DNA of 64,000 nucleotides, from NCBI GenBank assembly GCA_018238155.1, contig JABCTZ010000007.1:124001-188000 (forward strand). The letters are read 5' to 3'. The DNA is from Candidatus Heimdallarchaeota archaeon (GTDB lineage Archaea > Asgardarchaeota > Heimdallarchaeia > JABLTI01). The notes below the pieces were generated by a model. The model did no database searches, was not told where the DNA came from, and saw nothing but the letters and a program-made list of their open reading frames with translations. Below, piece by piece: positions 9,465 to 63,554 of this stretch. The first letter of the stretch is position 1; each line of letters starts with the position of its first letter. A program made the position numbers and the translations under genes.

Positions 9465-10424
9465 TTAAATCTTATAGTCATTATAAGCATCTCTCAAATG
9501 TTCTAACCCTGTGCGATTTATGATTCTCGACATTCCCATTTGTGTTTTTGGAAATCCAATTAAAAGTGCTAAATAATCATCTTTTGAACAATTAATTCTA
9601 GATACAATACTATAATTTGACTCGTCCTCATCCTCAAGTACAATAATCTTTATTCCTCCAACTTCCAAATCTGTTTGGAAGTCTTCAATAGCAGAGAAAA
9701 TTTTCGCTACATAAGCAGCAAAAACGGTGGAATTTTCTACTCCTGTAAATGATTCACCAATGAGTAATCCATTTGGGTCTGTTATAAGAACGATTTTTGC
9801 ATTTGTTTGCTTTCGAACCCATTCAGCTAATTTATCAAAACTGATTCTATTTATGCCAACATGTTTAGCAATAACTTTAACAAATGGCTCATGAATTGTT
9901 TCAGGATTATGAAGTGTAGTCTCAAATATCTTGAATTGATAAATAACACTTGGGAAAAGATGTTCTAAAGGGTCAAGAATTTGTTTTTTGATGGTTAACC
10001 CATTTTCCGCTTCTTCTAGGTCTTGTTTATGAGCTAAAAGTAGAAAGTTTTTACATTCAGGGGAAAGCTGCATTAAATCTTCAATTGATCTTTGTAGTTC
10101 TTCTCTAGCTTCATTTATTCTTTCAATCTCAGATGAATCCACAACAAAAATAAATGTGCTAACATTTTCAAAGTACTCGTTTTTCATCGTCCCATGAAAT
10201 TCTCTTAATCGTAAATCTTCTTGTCCTGGTGGAATGAAAAAAATATATTTCTTTTTTAAGAATATTTTTTCTGAAATCTCGAGATCTTTACTAGGTGTTC
10301 TTCTTTGAGCAGCTTCAATTGGGATATATTTCATTATATCTTGAACTGAACTTTTCCCTGCATTATCTAATCCCGCAATTAGAACTTTCTCAATTACCAT
10401 CTCCAATTCTTGCTCTGTTTGCAT
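9465..10424 (-). CDS. Rag/Gtr-like small GTPase fused to a C-terminal roadblock/LC7-like domain
   Basis: The GTPase domain (about residues 9-190) has a P-loop GLDNAGKSS (18-26), a switch II region PPGQEDLR (65-72) and G4 HKQD (132-135). The His-Lys-x-Asp form of G4, with preceding FENVSTFIFVVDSS and SPECKNFLLL, resembles RagA/Gtr1 more than Arf or Ras. The usual Asp of DxxG is absent before PPGQ. The C-terminal part (about 195-319) reads like a roadblock/LC7 fold (AKIVLITDPNGLLIGES). GTPase plus C-terminal roadblock is the architecture of eukaryotic Rag GTPases, which signal amino-acid status to TORC1. Function in archaea is unknown. Asgard genomes are known to encode Rag-like GTPases. Confidence 0.75.
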   Translation of the reverse strand: MQTEQELEMVIEKVLIAGLDNAGKSSVQDIMKYIPIEAAQRRTPSKDLEISEKIFLKKKYIFFIPPGQEDLRLREFHGTMKNEYFENVSTFIFVVDSSEIERINEAREELQRSIEDLMQLSPECKNFLLLAHKQDLEEAENGLTIKKQILDPLEHLFPSVIYQFKIFETTLHNPETIHEPFVKVIAKHVGINRISFDKLAEWVRKQTNAKIVLITDPNGLLIGESFTGVENSTVFAAYVAKIFSAIEDFQTDLEVGGIKIIVLEDEDESNYSIVSRINCSKDDYLALLIGFPKTQMGMSRIINRTGLEHLRDAYNDYKI

Positions 10425-51477: not shown

Positions 51478-54400
51478 ATGATAGCGCGTGAGAAAATAAT
51501 TGAAAGATCTGCTGCAGAATTCTTTGAAGCAAATAAGGCAATTGCAGGATTCGATAATCCTACCAGGTCTACTTATACAAGTATTAGAGAACTAGTTGAA
51601 AATGCATTAGATGCTGCAGAAAAAGGGGGAATTTTACCTGATGTCAATATTCTAATCGAATTGATGTCTACAGAGGAAATCGGCGAATTAATGGGTATTA
51701 AAGATTACCGACCACCAGATGAAGAATCAGGAATTGAATTCATTAGATTGTCTGTGCGAGATAATGGTATTGGTATTCGTCACGCAGACATTCCAAAATT
51801 ATTTGGAAGAGTACTTACCGGTTCAAATTACGGAGAACGACAATCACGTGGTCGATTTGGTTTAGGGGCAAAAATGGTTTTAATTTATTCTCAATCAACT
51901 ATTCGAGTTCCATTTGAAATTAAATCACGATTAGCTCTTTCTAAGAAAAAATCAGCCGAATTTACAAGTCATTACAAATTGTTTATTGATATTGTTAGAA
52001 ATGCTCCTGAAATCGTTGATTCAACAAAATATACCGGCAAATCAAAGAATCAATTAAAAGTACATGGTACTGAGGTTACTTGTTGTTTTGCAGGCACATG
52101 GAGAAGGTCGAAAAGATATATCTTTGAATATTTAGAAGAGATGGCTGTTATAACACCATATGCGTCATTCACTATTACTACTCCTGATAATCCCGATGAA
52201 CCTATCCTTCATAATAGAACCGTTGATGTAATTCCTGACCCACCAATAGAAGTACCATTACATCCAATCGGGACAGATATTAATCAAATAAAAAGTGAGA
52301 TTTCTAGAACAAGATGTAAAGACATGAAGAATTTTCTGAAAACCCATTTTCAGAGAATTGGTGATAAAACTGCTGCTCAGGTTCTAAAGGTATCTAAAAT
52401 TAAAGCAAGTAAAAATCCTCTGAATCTAGATGAAATGGAACTCCGAAGATTAATTCATGAAGGCTTTACAAAGGTTAAATTTTTCCCTCCTGATGGTAAA
52501 TGTTTGTCACCGTTAGGACATGAAAATTTAGCAGCAGGTTTAGAAGATGTATACCTACCTGAATTCAGCTGTTCAGAAGGCAGACCACCTTCAAGCTATA
52601 GTGGACATGCTTTTCAAGTTGAAGTAGCTATAGGCTATGGTGGGGAAAACCTTAGTGCGCCTTACAAATTAATGCGTTTTGCCAATAGAATTCCTTTACT
52701 TTTTGGTGAAGGAAATGATTTGATAAAGAAAACAATTGAAAGCATTAATTGGTCCAATTATAAGACCAATCTCAATAATGATCCAATAATATTTGCCGTG
52801 TCATTAGTTAGTACTAAAATACCTTTCCCAGAAACAAGCAAGGAATATATTGCTGAAGTAGATGAGATTAGAAGGGAACTTCGGTTATGTTTACAAAAAG
52901 CCGGAAGGAAGCTAATGAGTTTCCAAAGAGCTTTGAAGAAAAAAGAGCAAGCAGCGCGAAGATCGAAAATATTCGAAAAATACGCCCCAACCGTTTCTTC
53001 AATTGTAGGACAAATGCTTGGAAAAATGGATGAAGATGAATTTCCATTTATGTTCAGTTCAACACAATTTAGTAAATGTTTGAAACAAAGAGATGGTTCG
53101 ATTTTTCTACCAAAGAACCCCATCCCAGTTGAAGCTCTACCTATAGATTCAATTGAGGGTGTCAATCTTGATAGATATGATATTCAGACACTACAAGATC
53201 TCATTTTAATCGATGATGAGCAAATGCAAGAATTAATTTCTCTCGGATTATCTGAAGAAGCATTAGATCAAGCAGAACAAATACTACGGGCAATTCTTGA
53301 GCTGCCTGAACTAGCAAAAGATGAATTAGTAGAATCTGTAAGTGCTAAAGCCCTGGATGAATTTGCTCGAGAGAGAGGAATAATTGATGGTATGAATCTT
53401 TATGAAGGAATGGATTCAGTATCAATCCTTCCAGGTGTTGGTCCCGCGACTCAGAAATCACTTCGAGCTCGTGGTGTTAAAACAATTAAAGATTTCTTCT
53501 TAATGGAAAATGAAGAACTTACCAAAAGTAGTTTGAATATTGCTATAATCGCTGAACTTAAATCTAAATGCAATGTTGATGTTTTACCAAATATTGATCA
53601 AAGAACGGTAGAGGAATTGCATAACAAAAAAGTTTACAGTGTACTTGAATTTCTAGAAGCAGATGATGAAGAGCTAAGCCAATTGTCTGGTTTATCAGAA
53701 GAACGTGTGACTGCGTTATTTGAATTAATCAAAACATTACTTGATTTAGATATTACATCTCTTAGAGAAGAAAGTACCAAAATAGAAATTGACGAATCAA
53801 TAGATGATGAGGAACTTGTCACTCAACCCACTAAGGTCAAAATACCCACTCCACCTCCTGGCTTCCTAGAAGCAGATGCTGAAGTTGATGAATTGGGAGG
53901 TGTAGGAAAAACAATGGCTGCGAGATTATCAGCTAAAGGTATTGAAACAGTAGCCAAATTCTATATGGTTACTAATAGTCGCTTACTTAAGATTAAAGGT
54001 CTTGGAGCAAAAACAATAGCCGACAATCGTGGGAATACGGATGTAATAGTATTACCAAGAATAAATTTTGAGGGTAAAAGTGATCTGAATCTAATGGGTA
54101 TATTTACTGTGCAACAATTTTTCGACGCCGATGATGATAGTTTAACAAATGCAAGAGGATTACGATCATTAACGATTACAAAGTTAAAATTAGACATTGA
54201 AGAAAAACTGCTGATGACGCCTGGCTCAAAAATAGTTCCTTTGAGGAAAAAGAAAAAACCTGTGAAGAAACCAACGAAAACAGCACCAACTAAAGAAAAA
54301 ATCACTCCTGTTAAACCATCTAAAGCCAAAAAAGCAGCAAAGACTGTTGTAAAGAAGGATACTTCTATAGCTGAGTTTCTAGGCACAAAGAAACCTAAAG

Positions 54401-54822
54401 TAGATGATGAGGAAACCACTAAAGTTGTAAGAGGACCACCAAAAGGGATGCTAGAACCTACACTTAGAATTAGTAAAATCCCAGGTATGGGCAAAACAAC
54501 AGAAGAACGATTAGCAAAGGTGGGCGTAAAATCAGTAGGGGATGTTTACAAGAAAAGCATCGCTCGATTAGGTTCAGTAAAAGGAGTAAAAGAAGAAGAT
54601 ATTATCGAAATGCGAAAAATGCTCTCGGTTGCAGTATTGCCTCATGTCTCACAAATGGTGCAAGAAGAACTGAACAAAGCAGGAATTTACACTGTGAAAC
54701 AATTCCAAAGTGCAAAAATAGCTAAAACATCAGCTGTCAAAGGTTTGGGAGTAAAAACAGTGAAAAATATTAGAAAGCAAATAAACAGAGCACTAAAAAC
54801 ATCAGCAGAATTAGAAGGGTAG
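51478..54822 (+). CDS. top6B: Type IIB DNA topoisomerase VI, subunit B, with long C-terminal helix-hairpin-helix extension
   Basis: The GHKL ATPase motifs are clear: ELVENALDAA (about 38-47), DNGIGIRH (95-102) and GRFGLGAKM (125-133). Family core sequences run to about residue 545. Typical subunit B has 530-660 residues; here it is 1114. The extra about 570 residues contain roughly six or seven repeats with helix-hairpin-helix character (SILPGVGPATQKSLRARGVK, ELGGVGKTMAARLSAKGIE, KIPGMGKTTEERLAKVGVK), joined by a lysine-rich linker (about 920-990). Such units bind DNA without sequence preference. Subunit A follows 62 bases downstream. The tail's role is unknown. Confidence 0.92.
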   Translation: MIAREKIIERSAAEFFEANKAIAGFDNPTRSTYTSIRELVENALDAAEKGGILPDVNILIELMSTEEIGELMGIKDYRPPDEESGIEFIRLSVRDNGIGIRHADIPKLFGRVLTGSNYGERQSRGRFGLGAKMVLIYSQSTIRVPFEIKSRLALSKKKSAEFTSHYKLFIDIVRNAPEIVDSTKYTGKSKNQLKVHGTEVTCCFAGTWRRSKRYIFEYLEEMAVITPYASFTITTPDNPDEPILHNRTVDVIPDPPIEVPLHPIGTDINQIKSEISRTRCKDMKNFLKTHFQRIGDKTAAQVLKVSKIKASKNPLNLDEMELRRLIHEGFTKVKFFPPDGKCLSPLGHENLAAGLEDVYLPEFSCSEGRPPSSYSGHAFQVEVAIGYGGENLSAPYKLMRFANRIPLLFGEGNDLIKKTIESINWSNYKTNLNNDPIIFAVSLVSTKIPFPETSKEYIAEVDEIRRELRLCLQKAGRKLMSFQRALKKKEQAARRSKIFEKYAPTVSSIVGQMLGKMDEDEFPFMFSSTQFSKCLKQRDGSIFLPKNPIPVEALPIDSIEGVNLDRYDIQTLQDLILIDDEQMQELISLGLSEEALDQAEQILRAILELPELAKDELVESVSAKALDEFARERGIIDGMNLYEGMDSVSILPGVGPATQKSLRARGVKTIKDFFLMENEELTKSSLNIAIIAELKSKCNVDVLPNIDQRTVEELHNKKVYSVLEFLEADDEELSQLSGLSEERVTALFELIKTLLDLDITSLREESTKIEIDESIDDEELVTQPTKVKIPTPPPGFLEADAEVDELGGVGKTMAARLSAKGIETVAKFYMVTNSRLLKIKGLGAKTIADNRGNTDVIVLPRINFEGKSDLNLMGIFTVQQFFDADDDSLTNARGLRSLTITKLKLDIEEKLLMTPGSKIVPLRKKKKPVKKPTKTAPTKEKITPVKPSKAKKAAKTVVKKDTSIAEFLGTKKPKVDDEETTKVVRGPPKGMLEPTLRISKIPGMGKTTEERLAKVGVKSVGDVYKKSIARLGSVKGVKEEDIIEMRKMLSVAVLPHVSQMVQEELNKAGIYTVKQFQSAKIAKTSAVKGLGVKTVKNIRKQINRALKTSAELEG

Positions 54823-58571: not shown

Positions 58572-58759
58572 TTAACCATTAATTTAGTGGCACTCATCTT
58601 TAATGTGGTTTATCTTGACGATTAAACTTAATAGAGAAGAATAACTTCATTACTCATAACACCAACATCACGACAGCTAAACTTGGAAAAAAAATCTGAT
58701 AGACCACTAAATCACTAATATTAACTATAACCTGATAGGATAATGAAGGTCACTTGGTA

Positions 58760-61042
58760 ATGATACAATTCGTATGGATACTCATTAAAGATACACCCAT
58801 TACAGGTATGAAATTCATAAAAATATCCGATCAAGAAGAAAGAGATCGCTTAGAGAAATTTTATGGCTGGCTTAGTGGACCTTCAAGTGAATACACTGAA
58901 AAAGTTCAAAATATAATCTTACAAGACACTAAATATTATTATCATTCTAATAACTCGGTTCTATTTGTTATTGGAGCGGATTTGGATGAAACAAGCATTC
59001 CATCCGTATTTCTTCCTGAATTAAAAGAAAGGTTCTTTGGTGTTTTTCCACATGATGTTACTGCTACTTTTAACGGAAAAGACACATCACAGTTTAGAAG
59101 CTTTGATCCTGTGCTAGTTGAATTATCAATAGCTTTTGAACAGAGAAAAATTGAAGCTTTTGGCAATCGAAAAGAGCTTGATGCTTTTGAGGTTTTGAAT
59201 TTACCAAATGAATTGCAAATGGTCACACTTGTACTGGTAAAAATGCAAGTTGTTACTCCTGATATGATTTCTCAAGTGACAGGAATTTCATCCACAGAAG
59301 TCGAAAGACAGCTACGCGAAGTCTATCAAAGAGGGTATCTATATATAACGACAATTTCTAATAAATCATATTTCTCGATTAAACCATTTGATTCCGAAGA
59401 CTCGCACAAAATTAAAAATCAAAAAACACCCACAGAAAAACTCATAGGAGCTTCATCTGACACAGTCGTTCTGTCTGATCATTTACAAGATATCTCTCAA
59501 TCGTCATTGGATATTGAGAAAACATTCCCTCCAGATAAGGGAGGAACACCTAGATTTAGTTTAGATGATGCAAAAGTTAGTGAAGAAACAACCCCAAAAT
59601 TTGACACAAAAGAATCTGCTATGATGCCTCCGCCCAGCTTGGATAAGAGTTCAAGCTCAGGACTTTATGCTTTATCTCAAGGTGAGATGAAAGTTCCTTC
59701 ATTAACTAATGATATAAAACCAAAACCGAAAGATTCAGTAGAACCTGCCAAAGATAAGAAAGAATCTAAAGGTGTTAAACTTAAAATTGATCCTATCGCC
59801 CAAGAAATCGATCGTAATCATAAATTGACAATCGTCATCCCAAAGAATGGTTCTCTTCCTTCAAATTCTCTTCGAAGAGAAAAAGGATATTCTTCTGGTA
59901 AAGTTAGAATTCCTAATGAAAAGAATAAAGATCCTTTCCTATTAAATTCAATGATTAAAAAAGATCTTGAAAATATTTTCGAAGCATTACTAATGGGAAA
60001 ACTAATAGTAATTTCTGGTGATACACCAGAAGTGATTACTACAGGTCTAGTGGATAAAGTTTTTGAAACTTTGACTCTCCTTGCGCCATATAGGTCTCTT
60101 CGCTGTATGAAAAGTGAGATCTTTGTTCATCCAAAGGATGCAGATATTGTTTATCTTCCTAAACATTTGCTTAAATATTATTCATGGGCTACAATTATAG
60201 ATTTAGATCAGAAAAAAGTTACAAGTGGTTCTTCTTCCGAGTTCTCCAGAAACTTAGTCAAGAAAATACGTAAAATAACTGACCCAAAGGAACTAGTAAA
60301 GGAAGTTACTAACATCTCTTCAGTTTTACTGAAAGTTGGTCGAGATATAAATACTCTGAAAATAGAAGGAAGACCTCCTGATTTATATCTGAATGAGGTA
60401 AAGAAAACTTTTGGCGTTGCAACATTAGAAGCAGGTTTAGCTTTAAGTGAGAAACTGATTCGTTTACACAAAGATTGTGCTTACATCGCCGGATTCTATA
60501 TCCGAAAAGGTCTAGATGTCATTGTTCGTGCAATAGTTGTTGGGTACCCAGTTGTTGTTATTGGTGATGATCCATTGGATGTATTGCATGTTATTGAAGC
60601 CTTGTCAATATTTGCACCGAATAAAGCAGTTAATGCACAAGTATGGACAACGAATTTTGCTGGTATAAATCTGAAAGAATTTGATTTTATGGGTGCACAA
60701 GAAGGGACTGATAAACTCTTTAGAGATGCAGTGAAAGTTAATCTGCGCTCAATGAGCGCATATGGTGGTCCCCGTTCGGAATTTCTACATGAACTATTAC
60801 GTAAAATGTGGCGAAGAAGATCAAAAGAGAGACCGAAATTTATTCGTGAGAACATTTCCCTTATGTTCAATGATGTCGAAAAAATCGTTAAAGCTTTCAA
60901 TTCTTTAGGAAATAGAGAACCTACAAAGCAAGAAATTAGAGAATTATTTAACAAGTATGAACAACATTTTCATGTACTGGTAATTGACATACTAAAAAAT
61001 GAGCAGAAGGACATTGTTGCTAAAATCAAACAAGCATTCTGA
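58760..61042 (+). CDS. Longin-like N-terminus, winged helix and two DENN-like segments; unrecognised Asgard-type protein
   Basis: Residues about 1-115 have the strand/helix order of a longin domain (FVWILIKDTPITGMKFIKI ... SVLFVIGADLDE). Residues about 150-205 look like a winged helix (TPDMISQVTGISSTEVERQL). A Ser/Lys-rich disordered linker (about 220-390) follows. The C-terminal part contains IFEALLMGKLIVISGD, then ALxxLAP-like and IIDLDQKKV (about 410-490), and a second such unit VIVRAIVVGYPVVVIGDDP (about 590-650). This layout resembles the central DENN pattern (LLxxRxVIxxS, then VDLDxxxV). DENN modules regulate small GTPases in eukaryotes. This is a hypothesis and needs structure comparison. 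Confidence 0.5.
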   Translation: MIQFVWILIKDTPITGMKFIKISDQEERDRLEKFYGWLSGPSSEYTEKVQNIILQDTKYYYHSNNSVLFVIGADLDETSIPSVFLPELKERFFGVFPHDVTATFNGKDTSQFRSFDPVLVELSIAFEQRKIEAFGNRKELDAFEVLNLPNELQMVTLVLVKMQVVTPDMISQVTGISSTEVERQLREVYQRGYLYITTISNKSYFSIKPFDSEDSHKIKNQKTPTEKLIGASSDTVVLSDHLQDISQSSLDIEKTFPPDKGGTPRFSLDDAKVSEETTPKFDTKESAMMPPPSLDKSSSSGLYALSQGEMKVPSLTNDIKPKPKDSVEPAKDKKESKGVKLKIDPIAQEIDRNHKLTIVIPKNGSLPSNSLRREKGYSSGKVRIPNEKNKDPFLLNSMIKKDLENIFEALLMGKLIVISGDTPEVITTGLVDKVFETLTLLAPYRSLRCMKSEIFVHPKDADIVYLPKHLLKYYSWATIIDLDQKKVTSGSSSEFSRNLVKKIRKITDPKELVKEVTNISSVLLKVGRDINTLKIEGRPPDLYLNEVKKTFGVATLEAGLALSEKLIRLHKDCAYIAGFYIRKGLDVIVRAIVVGYPVVVIGDDPLDVLHVIEALSIFAPNKAVNAQVWTTNFAGINLKEFDFMGAQEGTDKLFRDAVKVNLRSMSAYGGPRSEFLHELLRKMWRRRSKERPKFIRENISLMFNDVEKIVKAFNSLGNREPTKQEIRELFNKYEQHFHVLVIDILKNEQKDIVAKIKQAF

Positions 61043-61529: not shown

Positions 61530-63554
61530 TTGATTACAAAAATATTTCGAAGTCGAAAAAATAGTCTATTAGCATTGATCTTTATTTTTATTTTTTTGTT
61601 GCCATTTTTTGTTAATGATCAGATGATTTTTCTGAATGCAATATCAAATTATGATAATGAACTTGAAATTGATGCTAAGAAAAAAGCACCAATAGATTCA
61701 ACAAATGTAACAGAGTTGAGCTATTGGGATGACAACTACGGAGATATCTTTGAAGTTGTTGTAACTGGGAGCTATGCATATTTAACACTTGGAGATAATG
61801 GATTATTAATTGTTGATGTTTCTGATGTAACAGCACCTAGTGTTGTTGCTGAATGGGATACTTATGCATGTAGATACATTTACATTGAGTCTGATGTAAT
61901 TTATGCAACAAATTTATCATCAGTTTACATACTTGATGCATCTGATTTCAGTAACATGAATGTTATTAGCAACTGGACAGTATCTAATACTATTAGAGAT
62001 ATTCTTGTAGATGGTAGCTTTGTACATCTTACAACAGATGCACAATATGCAATATACAACATCACAGATTTAGCAACCCCAACTCAAACCGACAGTTTTA
62101 TTCAAGCTGGTTTGACAACTCTCCAACTAGATGGTGATATTTTATATGTTGAAGATTCAAATCGTGTGCGAATACTAAATGTATCTGATGTTACTTCTAT
62201 AGTTCAACTGGATGATGTTTACTTTTCAGGTTTAGACAATTTCTACTATTCAAATGATTTCTTGTACATAACTGATTCAGTTGGTATTTACATCTATAAT
62301 ACAACTTTACCCGATACTCCTATTTTGGTGAGCTTATTTGCCCTCAATTTCACAGGTGGAGATGCTGATCTTTTACTCAAAGGAAATTACCTTCTTGTAA
62401 ATAATGTTGTTACCATTGAAATGTTTGATATTTCAAATAAAAATGCTCCACTTTACTATACAACTTATAAGGACATATTCACTTCCTCTGATTTCCAAAT
62501 AGTAGGAGATAACATTTATCTTTGGGATGATCTATCAATGGAAATTCTCGATTCTTCTGATTTAACAGCAATATCTGTAATTTGGTTGGATCAATTCAAT
62601 GGTTATGCTAAGGATGTTTTCTTAGATGGAGATTTTGCATTTATTGCAGATGGATCAAATCTTCAAATAATGGACATTACTGATTTTAATAATCCTGTAG
62701 AAGTTGGCCAATTCTTTGATGAAAATGGTGCCTTTACTGATGTTTATGTAAATAATGGTTTTGCATATCTCCTAGAGGATGGATTAGGTCTTCGAATAGT
62801 TGATATATCTGATCCTGCAAATCCTATTGAAAGGGGCAATCTTACATTGCCTGGAGATTTTCAAAGACTCTGTGCAAATGATGAATACGTTTTCGTTGCA
62901 AACGGTGTTGCTGGACTTAGTATAATCGATGTATATTATCCTGGGTATCCACAACTATCTTTACTATATGATGAAGTAGGCAGTGTTTATGATGTTGCTT
63001 TGATGGGGAATAATCTGTTTCTAGCAACTGGTTCTTATTTACAAATTGTAGATATAAGCAACCCATATGAACCTGAGGCAATAGCTAATTATACACGAGC
63101 TACTTCCTTCTACACTTCTCTAGTCGTTTCTGAAAACTATATTTACGCAGTATCATTTTTTGAAGGATTTGATATTATTGATATAGCCACTGATATTACC
63201 ATTCCTGCAAAAGTTGGTCAGTACTTTACTAATCAATTTCCTATGGATATCTGTGTTGAAGGTGACTATATCTATCTTTTAGATGGTCTTTTTGGTCATA
63301 GTCTATTTGATGCCTTTAACATTGCTCATCCTAAGTTGATTGCTAGTTTTGATACTTTTGCTGGTATTACTGAAGGTTTTGCTGTCAGAAATGGATACAT
63401 CTTTGTTACTACAGGTTTAAATGGAACACATATTCTAACTACTAATCCATTACTTACTCTTAAATCACCATTCTTAGGACCACTGGCATTTTTTGCCGGA
63501 CTGACTATTTTCTCAGTGATTGTTATCTTTATTCGCAAGAAGAAGAGAAACTAA
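61530..63554 (+). CDS. Secreted LVIVD-repeat beta-propeller protein with C-terminal membrane anchor
   Basis: The N-terminus is a signal/anchor segment (LALIFIFIFLLPFFVND). Twelve or more repeats with phrases such as GLLIVDVSDVTAPSVVAEWD and GLRIVDISDPANPIERGNL are LVIVD-type beta-propeller units. A C-terminal membrane segment (FFAGLTIFSVIVIFI) is followed by RKKKRN, so the propeller lies outside the cell. Such proteins are common surface proteins of unknown binding role. The start is TTG at 61530. A tandem paralogue begins at 63811. Confidence 0.85.
   Translation: MITKIFRSRKNSLLALIFIFIFLLPFFVNDQMIFLNAISNYDNELEIDAKKKAPIDSTNVTELSYWDDNYGDIFEVVVTGSYAYLTLGDNGLLIVDVSDVTAPSVVAEWDTYACRYIYIESDVIYATNLSSVYILDASDFSNMNVISNWTVSNTIRDILVDGSFVHLTTDAQYAIYNITDLATPTQTDSFIQAGLTTLQLDGDILYVEDSNRVRILNVSDVTSIVQLDDVYFSGLDNFYYSNDFLYITDSVGIYIYNTTLPDTPILVSLFALNFTGGDADLLLKGNYLLVNNVVTIEMFDISNKNAPLYYTTYKDIFTSSDFQIVGDNIYLWDDLSMEILDSSDLTAISVIWLDQFNGYAKDVFLDGDFAFIADGSNLQIMDITDFNNPVEVGQFFDENGAFTDVYVNNGFAYLLEDGLGLRIVDISDPANPIERGNLTLPGDFQRLCANDEYVFVANGVAGLSIIDVYYPGYPQLSLLYDEVGSVYDVALMGNNLFLATGSYLQIVDISNPYEPEAIANYTRATSFYTSLVVSENYIYAVSFFEGFDIIDIATDITIPAKVGQYFTNQFPMDICVEGDYIYLLDGLFGHSLFDAFNIAHPKLIASFDTFAGITEGFAVRNGYIFVTTGLNGTHILTTNPLLTLKSPFLGPLAFFAGLTIFSVIVIFIRKKKRN

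Follow-up and report, generated by a model that had tools for sequence, protein, structure and literature searches.

An archaeal longin–winged helix protein with tandem predicted DENN units and relatives resembling folliculin

Longin-DENN regulators and an archaeal counterpart

Eukaryotic GAP complexes pair a longin-DENN protein that bears an arginine finger with one that lacks it, as seen in SMCR8-C9orf72; in FLCN-FNIP the finger resides in FLCN. FLCN is linked to Birt-Hogg-Dube syndrome and C9orf72 to ALS/FTD. FLCN Arg164 provides the catalytic arginine in the RagC/D GAP (PMC7464330), SMCR8 Arg147 has been observed in the ARF1 active site (PMC8213707), and in DENN GAPs of the Avl9 kind the finger is located between longin strands β4 and β5 (PMC12803157). 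A survey published in 2012 described DENN and dDENN as known only together, within the DENN module, treated small-GTPase GAPs and GEFs as mostly unique to eukaryotes, and proposed that fusions of the NPRL type (longin-wHTH) and of the DENN type arose in parallel (PMC3521125). An account of Asgard archaea covers Rab- and Rag-type GTPases, roadblock and longin proteins and TRAPPC3, and mentions neither DENN domains nor a longin-DENN family with an arginine finger (PMC10933270). Our literature search, which did not extend to the Asgard structure preprint by Kostlbacher (10.1101/2024.07.03.601958; cited in PMC12395588), found no report of DENN or folliculin from archaea.

Here we describe a 760-residue protein encoded in a 64-kb stretch of DNA from a Heimdall archaeon (the window), which sits on a contig of 195 kb (C39) in an assembly of 4.08 Mb. 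Like FLCN of the FLCN-FNIP2 RagC/D GAP complex, the protein has a longin followed by DENN, and among its relatives are proteins that score above the Pfam Folliculin cut-off and have retained the Arg164 finger. Unlike FLCN, the protein itself has no finger; a winged helix-turn-helix (wHTH) follows its longin, its linker is long and its DENN units number two. Longin and DENN are also combined in the Arf GAP complex SMCR8-C9orf72, and the DENN domain of SMCR8 is the top PDB match of the archaeal DENN profile, in register at the cDENN start although weak (E 0.041). SMCR8 bears the finger, whereas the archaeal protein would be a fingerless subunit like C9orf72; each of these eukaryotic chains has one DENN and the archaeal chain two.

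NPRL2 and NPRL3 (Npr2/Npr3) of GATOR1 share the succession of longin and winged helix, but they have three tandem wHTH domains, with DENN absent or much reduced (PMC3521125), rather than one wHTH and two DENN units. The order longin (uDENN), cDENN, dDENN recurs in Rab GEFs of the DENND1 type (PF02141), from which the archaeal protein differs by its tandem DENN and its wHTH insertion; nothing exceeds the PF02141 cut-off in 58 Heimdall-class genomes, the window's own genome (G000) included. Described Asgard longin, roadblock and Rag-like proteins (PMC10933270; PDB 8yqg) have in common with it the longin fold and a GTPase context. Both fusion types of the 2012 survey, longin-wHTH and DENN, are joined in this one chain. 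The apparent novelty lies in the archaeal domain of life and in the tandem arrangement; the modules themselves are known.

Gene and domain layout of the 760-residue protein

The open reading frame runs from 58754 to 61042 on the forward strand and encodes 762 residues when counted from TTG 58754. The true start is most likely ATG 58760, because the orthologs all start with MIQFVW and because a Shine-Dalgarno-like GAAGGT (58745-58750, +), identified by reading the sequence, lies 9 bases upstream. The gene (58760-61042, +) then yields the 760 residues that a sequence-only reading of this DNA had reported; residue numbers given here follow the 762-residue frame. It is a real gene, with orthologs in eight other genomes of the genus, conserved synteny and a dN/dS of 0.16 against the closest ortholog. 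The orthologs share 57-87% identity; two are fragments, and in one (G051) a TAG is reported within the matched region. By region, dN/dS is 0.04 for the winged helix, ~0.09 for both DENN copies and 0.34 for the linker.

The conserved upstream flank comprises topoVI-A, NDK and aIF5B, the last always upstream where the orthologous loci are visible, and a gene for a 78-residue membrane protein is the conserved downstream neighbour. These neighbours are housekeeping genes, and there is no small GTPase among them. Two further genes of the window deserve mention. The topoisomerase VI B subunit (51478-54822, +; 1114 residues) has a long series of helix-hairpin-helix repeats in its C-terminal part. At 61530-63554 (+), a gene kept downstream in two orthologous loci encodes a 674-residue protein, probably anchored in the membrane, with abundant LVIVD-like repeats (VDISD..).

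An AF2 model built from a 26-sequence alignment is of moderate quality (mean pLDDT 64, pTM 0.35) and comes from a predictor that has seen FLCN. It places in order a longin, one winged helix, a disordered linker of ~175 residues and two tandem units, each composed of a cDENN and helical dDENN. The predicted longin (residues 3-131; 58760-59146, +) contains the elements E4-11, E14-20, H26-40, E52-56, E59-66, E69-75, H82-97 and H112-130. VIA-align matches residues 1-131 to VAMP7 (4afi_A; Z 14.8, rmsd 2.1 over 118 residues), Sec22b (Z 14.6) and adaptor sigma chains, bearing out an earlier suggestion of a longin-like N-terminus. A Foldseek search returned the same families, longins and folliculin, at probability 1.00 but with E values no better than 1e-3 to 5e-3.

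Two parts of the chain had escaped the sequence-only reading. The first is the predicted winged helix (residues 144-210; 59183-59383, +), which shows an HHHH-EE pattern in the model, weak TrmB and DnaD_N matches and a weak profile match to the archaeal AspA wHTH (E 0.034). The second is the linker (residues 213-390; 59390-59923, +), where pLDDT is mostly below 40 and mean ortholog identity is 49%, rising to 77% in its last part (residues 340-390). The most conserved parts of the protein are the winged helix, the cDENN of copy 2 and the dDENN of copy 1 (82% mean ortholog identity).

The cDENN of copy 1 is assigned to residues 391-510 (59924-60283, +) and its dDENN-like helices to residues 511-570 (60284-60463, +; helices 511-538, 543-553 and 555-570). 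Copy 2 follows directly, with a predicted cDENN at residues 571-689 (60464-60820, +) and dDENN-like helices at residues 690-762 (60821-61039, +; helices 690-717, 725-733, 739-747 and 752-761). A DENN profile made from other genes only, leaving out the protein and its orthologs, recovers copy 1 at residues 395-560 (E 1.4e-31) and copy 2 at residues 583-754 (E 2.4e-23); at E <10 it recovers nothing from 500 shuffles or from the other open reading frames of the window. Judged by these profile matches, the tandem DENN segments proposed by the sequence-only reading are real and not a product of chance. The motif series on which that reading relied is clear in copy 1 (ALLMGKLIVISGD ... LLAP ... IIDLD), but in copy 2 (AIVVGYPVVVIGDD ... 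ALSIFAP) the 'VDLD' element is degenerate (VKVNL).

Only 34 of 174 aligned residues are identical between the two copies, and the duplication is therefore old or the units derive from different subfamilies. A profile of one subfamily (L028-L030) favours copy 2 (E 5e-12) over copy 1 (1.4e-3), so the copies have distinct affinities.

Could a generic small alpha/beta domain have come to resemble DENN by chance? The protein stays under every Pfam cut-off and has no PDB match by sequence, and the cDENN topology is a minimal, P-loop-like alpha/beta one (PMC3521125). Residues 391-573, however, match the C-terminal DENN of folliculin (3v42_B, FLCN 346-558; Z 13.0, rmsd 3.4 Å, 171 of 199 residues) and not a P-loop fold when the structure search proposed earlier is run. 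The helical dDENN of copy 1 also falls inside this 171-residue match, and a check of the sequence for Walker A (GxxxxGK[ST]) finds it absent from both copies. Moreover, many members of the family have longin and DENN in FLCN order, and Folliculin_C ranks the DENN family first in 58 genomes (see below). Chance likeness is thus highly improbable, and the protein is almost certainly homologous to the longin-DENN superfamily.

Folliculin-like relatives in Asgard archaea

In the window's genome the DENN profile gives 10 matches; of 227 Asgard genomes, 94 have at least one at E<=0.001. Members of the family include longin-DENN proteins of 320-390 residues, a longin-wHTH-DENN paralog of 435-461 residues, shorter chains that are free of longin and longer ones of 500-590 residues. 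Several (L004, L078, L081 and L091-L095) pass the Pfam Folliculin (PF11704) cut-off, L091-L095 with E values of 9e-8 to 8e-7. The PF11704 cut-off is exceeded in 38 of the 227 genomes, including all nine of the genus; at E<=1e-4 the profile has no match in 14 control genomes.

Folliculin_C (PF16692) leads to the same DENN family. Among the 58 Heimdall-class genomes it finds 26 places at E<=0.1, and the best 14 are all in the DENN family, as assigned by comparing them by eye with the list of places. One place (G008:C278) exceeds the cut-off (27.7 versus 27 bits), while none of the 14 control genomes is matched. In one subfamily, all eight members choose Folliculin_C out of Pfam. A profile of alignment A6 has folliculin as its sole PDB match, a weak one (E 0.41). 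In the PDB, the A9 subfamily profile gave nothing but weak matches to a hemolysin D coiled coil, which we judged to be chance.

The clearest structural likeness is found in L004, a 387-residue paralog from the window's genome (G000:C6; AF2 pLDDT 82, pTM 0.80). Its best Foldseek match is FLCN (E 6.6e-9, both domains), followed by C9orf72/SMCR8, DENND10, DENND1B and DENND1A. VIA aligns it with FLCN at Z 16.7 over 304 residues and both domains; the rmsd is large, presumably because the orientation of the domains differs. The DENN part alone scores Z 11.3 with FLCN (rmsd 3.3, 170 residues) and 11.2 with DENND1A.

Since the 760-residue protein is under every Pfam cut-off, its own link to FLCN runs through these relatives and through structure. 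The earlier proposal that the layout is that of FLCN, SMCR8 and C9orf72 is supported in this way, and its Pfam part holds for relatives, both from the same genome and from others of the class, but not for the protein itself. The resemblance is to FLCN and SMCR8 and not to DENN of the DENND type (PF02141). We rejected the idea that it is a folliculin ortholog, given its missing finger, the absence of a Pfam match over the cut-off and its different architecture.

The arginine finger divides the family. A phmmer alignment sets FLCN R164 (SLARGFQR) opposite R82 of L091 (ATARGGKR), which is invariant in alignment A6. The motif xRG occurs in the longins of L091-L095, L112, L113, L119, L123 and the L004 group; all six members of that group have xRGGQR, and the L004 model puts R105 between strands 90-100 and 108-118. 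The 760-residue protein has HSNNSV at the site, with no Arg in its predicted longin β4-β5 loop (N67-S68; 58952-58957, +), the position of an FLCN-type finger. Its orthologs and the 461-residue longin-wHTH-DENN paralog also lack the Arg. The window's genome holds both finger-bearing (L004, L093) and fingerless (the 760-residue protein and C15) longin-DENN proteins.

Two other kinds of longin protein were noted. A Heimdall family of ~430-440 residues (L115-L118, L120-L122, L124-L126, L128 and L129; for example L116:705-2018, +) has a folliculin-type longin with an xRGKNR motif; most members pass the Pfam cut-off, and the A3 profile finds no DENN in them. L131:1-1128 (+) encodes an apparently extracellular part, a membrane span and a terminal longin with a KARGGF motif.

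Longin-DENN proteins were previously known from eukaryotes only, and there is a general argument that proto-eukaryotes and Heimdallarchaeia exchanged genes (PMC12395588), so that transfer of eukaryotic genes into these archaea, or contamination of the assemblies, had to be weighed. We regard it as very unlikely. The family is present in 94 Asgard genomes, including single-contig assemblies, recent transfer would give far fewer subfamilies than are seen, and the gene studied here is intron-free and sits amid archaeal genes with conserved synteny. Ancient transfer, in either direction, may have taken place.

The occurrence of the family in a Heimdall archaeon implies that the longin-DENN control module, until now recorded in eukaryotes alone, is probably older than they are. 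Such a family, finger-bearing in part, would shift the origin of this system of GTPase control to before eukaryotes. A larger proposition is that Asgard archaea had the whole GAP principle, with pairs of finger-bearing and fingerless longin-DENN proteins switching off Rag- or Arf-like GTPases; we advance it tentatively and would not count on its being right. If it is, the DENN module and arginine-finger chemistry both predate eukaryotes, and the longin-wHTH-DENN layout lies near the common source of the NPRL (longin-wHTH) and FLCN (longin-DENN) branches of the mTORC1 pathway.

Small GTPases and the proposed role of the protein

A Rag-type GTPase (Gtr1_RagA/Arf with a roadblock C-terminus; 9465-10424, −) is indeed encoded in the window, as first noticed from the sequence, and represents a candidate client class. 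It lies 48 kb away and is not linked to the gene, and we rejected it as an operon partner. The genome as a whole has 25 small-GTPase candidates scored with PF04670.

A closer association is seen for a paralog. The closest one, with the layout longin-wHTH-DENN, heads a codirectional cluster that continues with two coiled-coil proteins of ~250 residues, an Arf-family GTPase (PF00025, 170 bits; P-loop GLDSAGKT), TsaD and Sua5. The GTPase is present in the cluster in seven of eight genomes of the genus, and in the eighth the contig ends before it; because all eight belong to one genus, this conservation may be partly plain synteny. SMCR8-C9orf72 likewise acts on Arf.

The module at the N-terminus of the 760-residue protein also exists by itself, as standalone Asgard longin-wHTH proteins of ~210 residues (L132-L146; for example L135:3651-5126 and L144:3763-5177). 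Their genes adjoin a gene for 250-290 residues in ~13 of 15 loci, and the four neighbours that were scanned are MinD/ParA-type ATPases.

GTPase regulation, longin pairing and a scaffold role, together with the client and the direction of action (GAP or GEF), are what we infer for the 760-residue protein. Longins serve as GTPase platforms in most well-studied complexes, and the protein probably acts on small GTPases. Because the finger of a GAP is missing, catalysis by this protein alone is unlikely. Its best explanation, which we favour with some reserve, is that of an archaeal longin-DENN member that most likely has no catalytic role of its own and acts within a small-GTPase regulator as a scaffold or partner subunit. 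In analogy to FLCN-FNIP and C9orf72-SMCR8, its longin would bind a second longin, and the two together would cradle an Arf- or Rag-like GTPase. A shorter folliculin-like longin-DENN protein of the same cell would supply the arginine finger that GTP hydrolysis requires, and both DENN copies would add docking surfaces. This fingerless-partner mechanism is a possible one, to which we give somewhat less than an even chance.

Its main rival is a GEF role, in which the longin and a DENN unit would bind an Arf- or Rab-like GTPase and eject GDP, as in DENND1-Rab35. Since the mechanism is ejection of GDP, no arginine finger is needed, which fits the fingerless longin. The classical function of DENN modules is that of Rab GEFs (PMC3521125), the L004 model matches DENND1A and DENND1B as well, and the clustering of the longin-wHTH-DENN paralog with an Arf-family GTPase fits such a role. 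Sequence similarity nonetheless points to the FLCN/SMCR8 branch, with nothing over the PF02141 cut-off, and we consider a GEF unlikely.

DNA binding is frequent among wHTH domains, and the MinD/ParA-type ATPases beside the standalone longin-wHTH genes hint at a different kind of partner. On these grounds GTPase regulation might have been lost, with the longin and wHTH scaffolding such an ATPase, DNA or something else and the DENN copies serving as protein-binding modules. We think this rather improbable, for the neighbours of the closest paralog are an Arf GTPase and coiled-coil proteins, with no ParA gene among them, and the usual function of longins as GTPase platforms speaks against it too. 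The archaeal longin-DENN proteins offer compact single chains suited to tests of mechanism.

We also considered whether the coiled-coil neighbours of the paralog belong to the family of the ATPase found beside the standalone longin-wHTH genes, an idea rejected for want of a profile match. This coiled-coil pair (L096-L103; ~248 and 249 residues), flanked by the longin-wHTH-DENN paralog on one side and the Arf-like GTPase on the other, has possible HTH-like ends. Finally, L127:71-1147 (+) (G034:C161) encodes a Ras/Rab-like GTPase whose chain continues into a folliculin-type longin at the C-terminus, which bears the motif DARGG. The fusion ties finger-bearing longins to GTPases, in that the GTPase carries its own putative arginine-finger domain.
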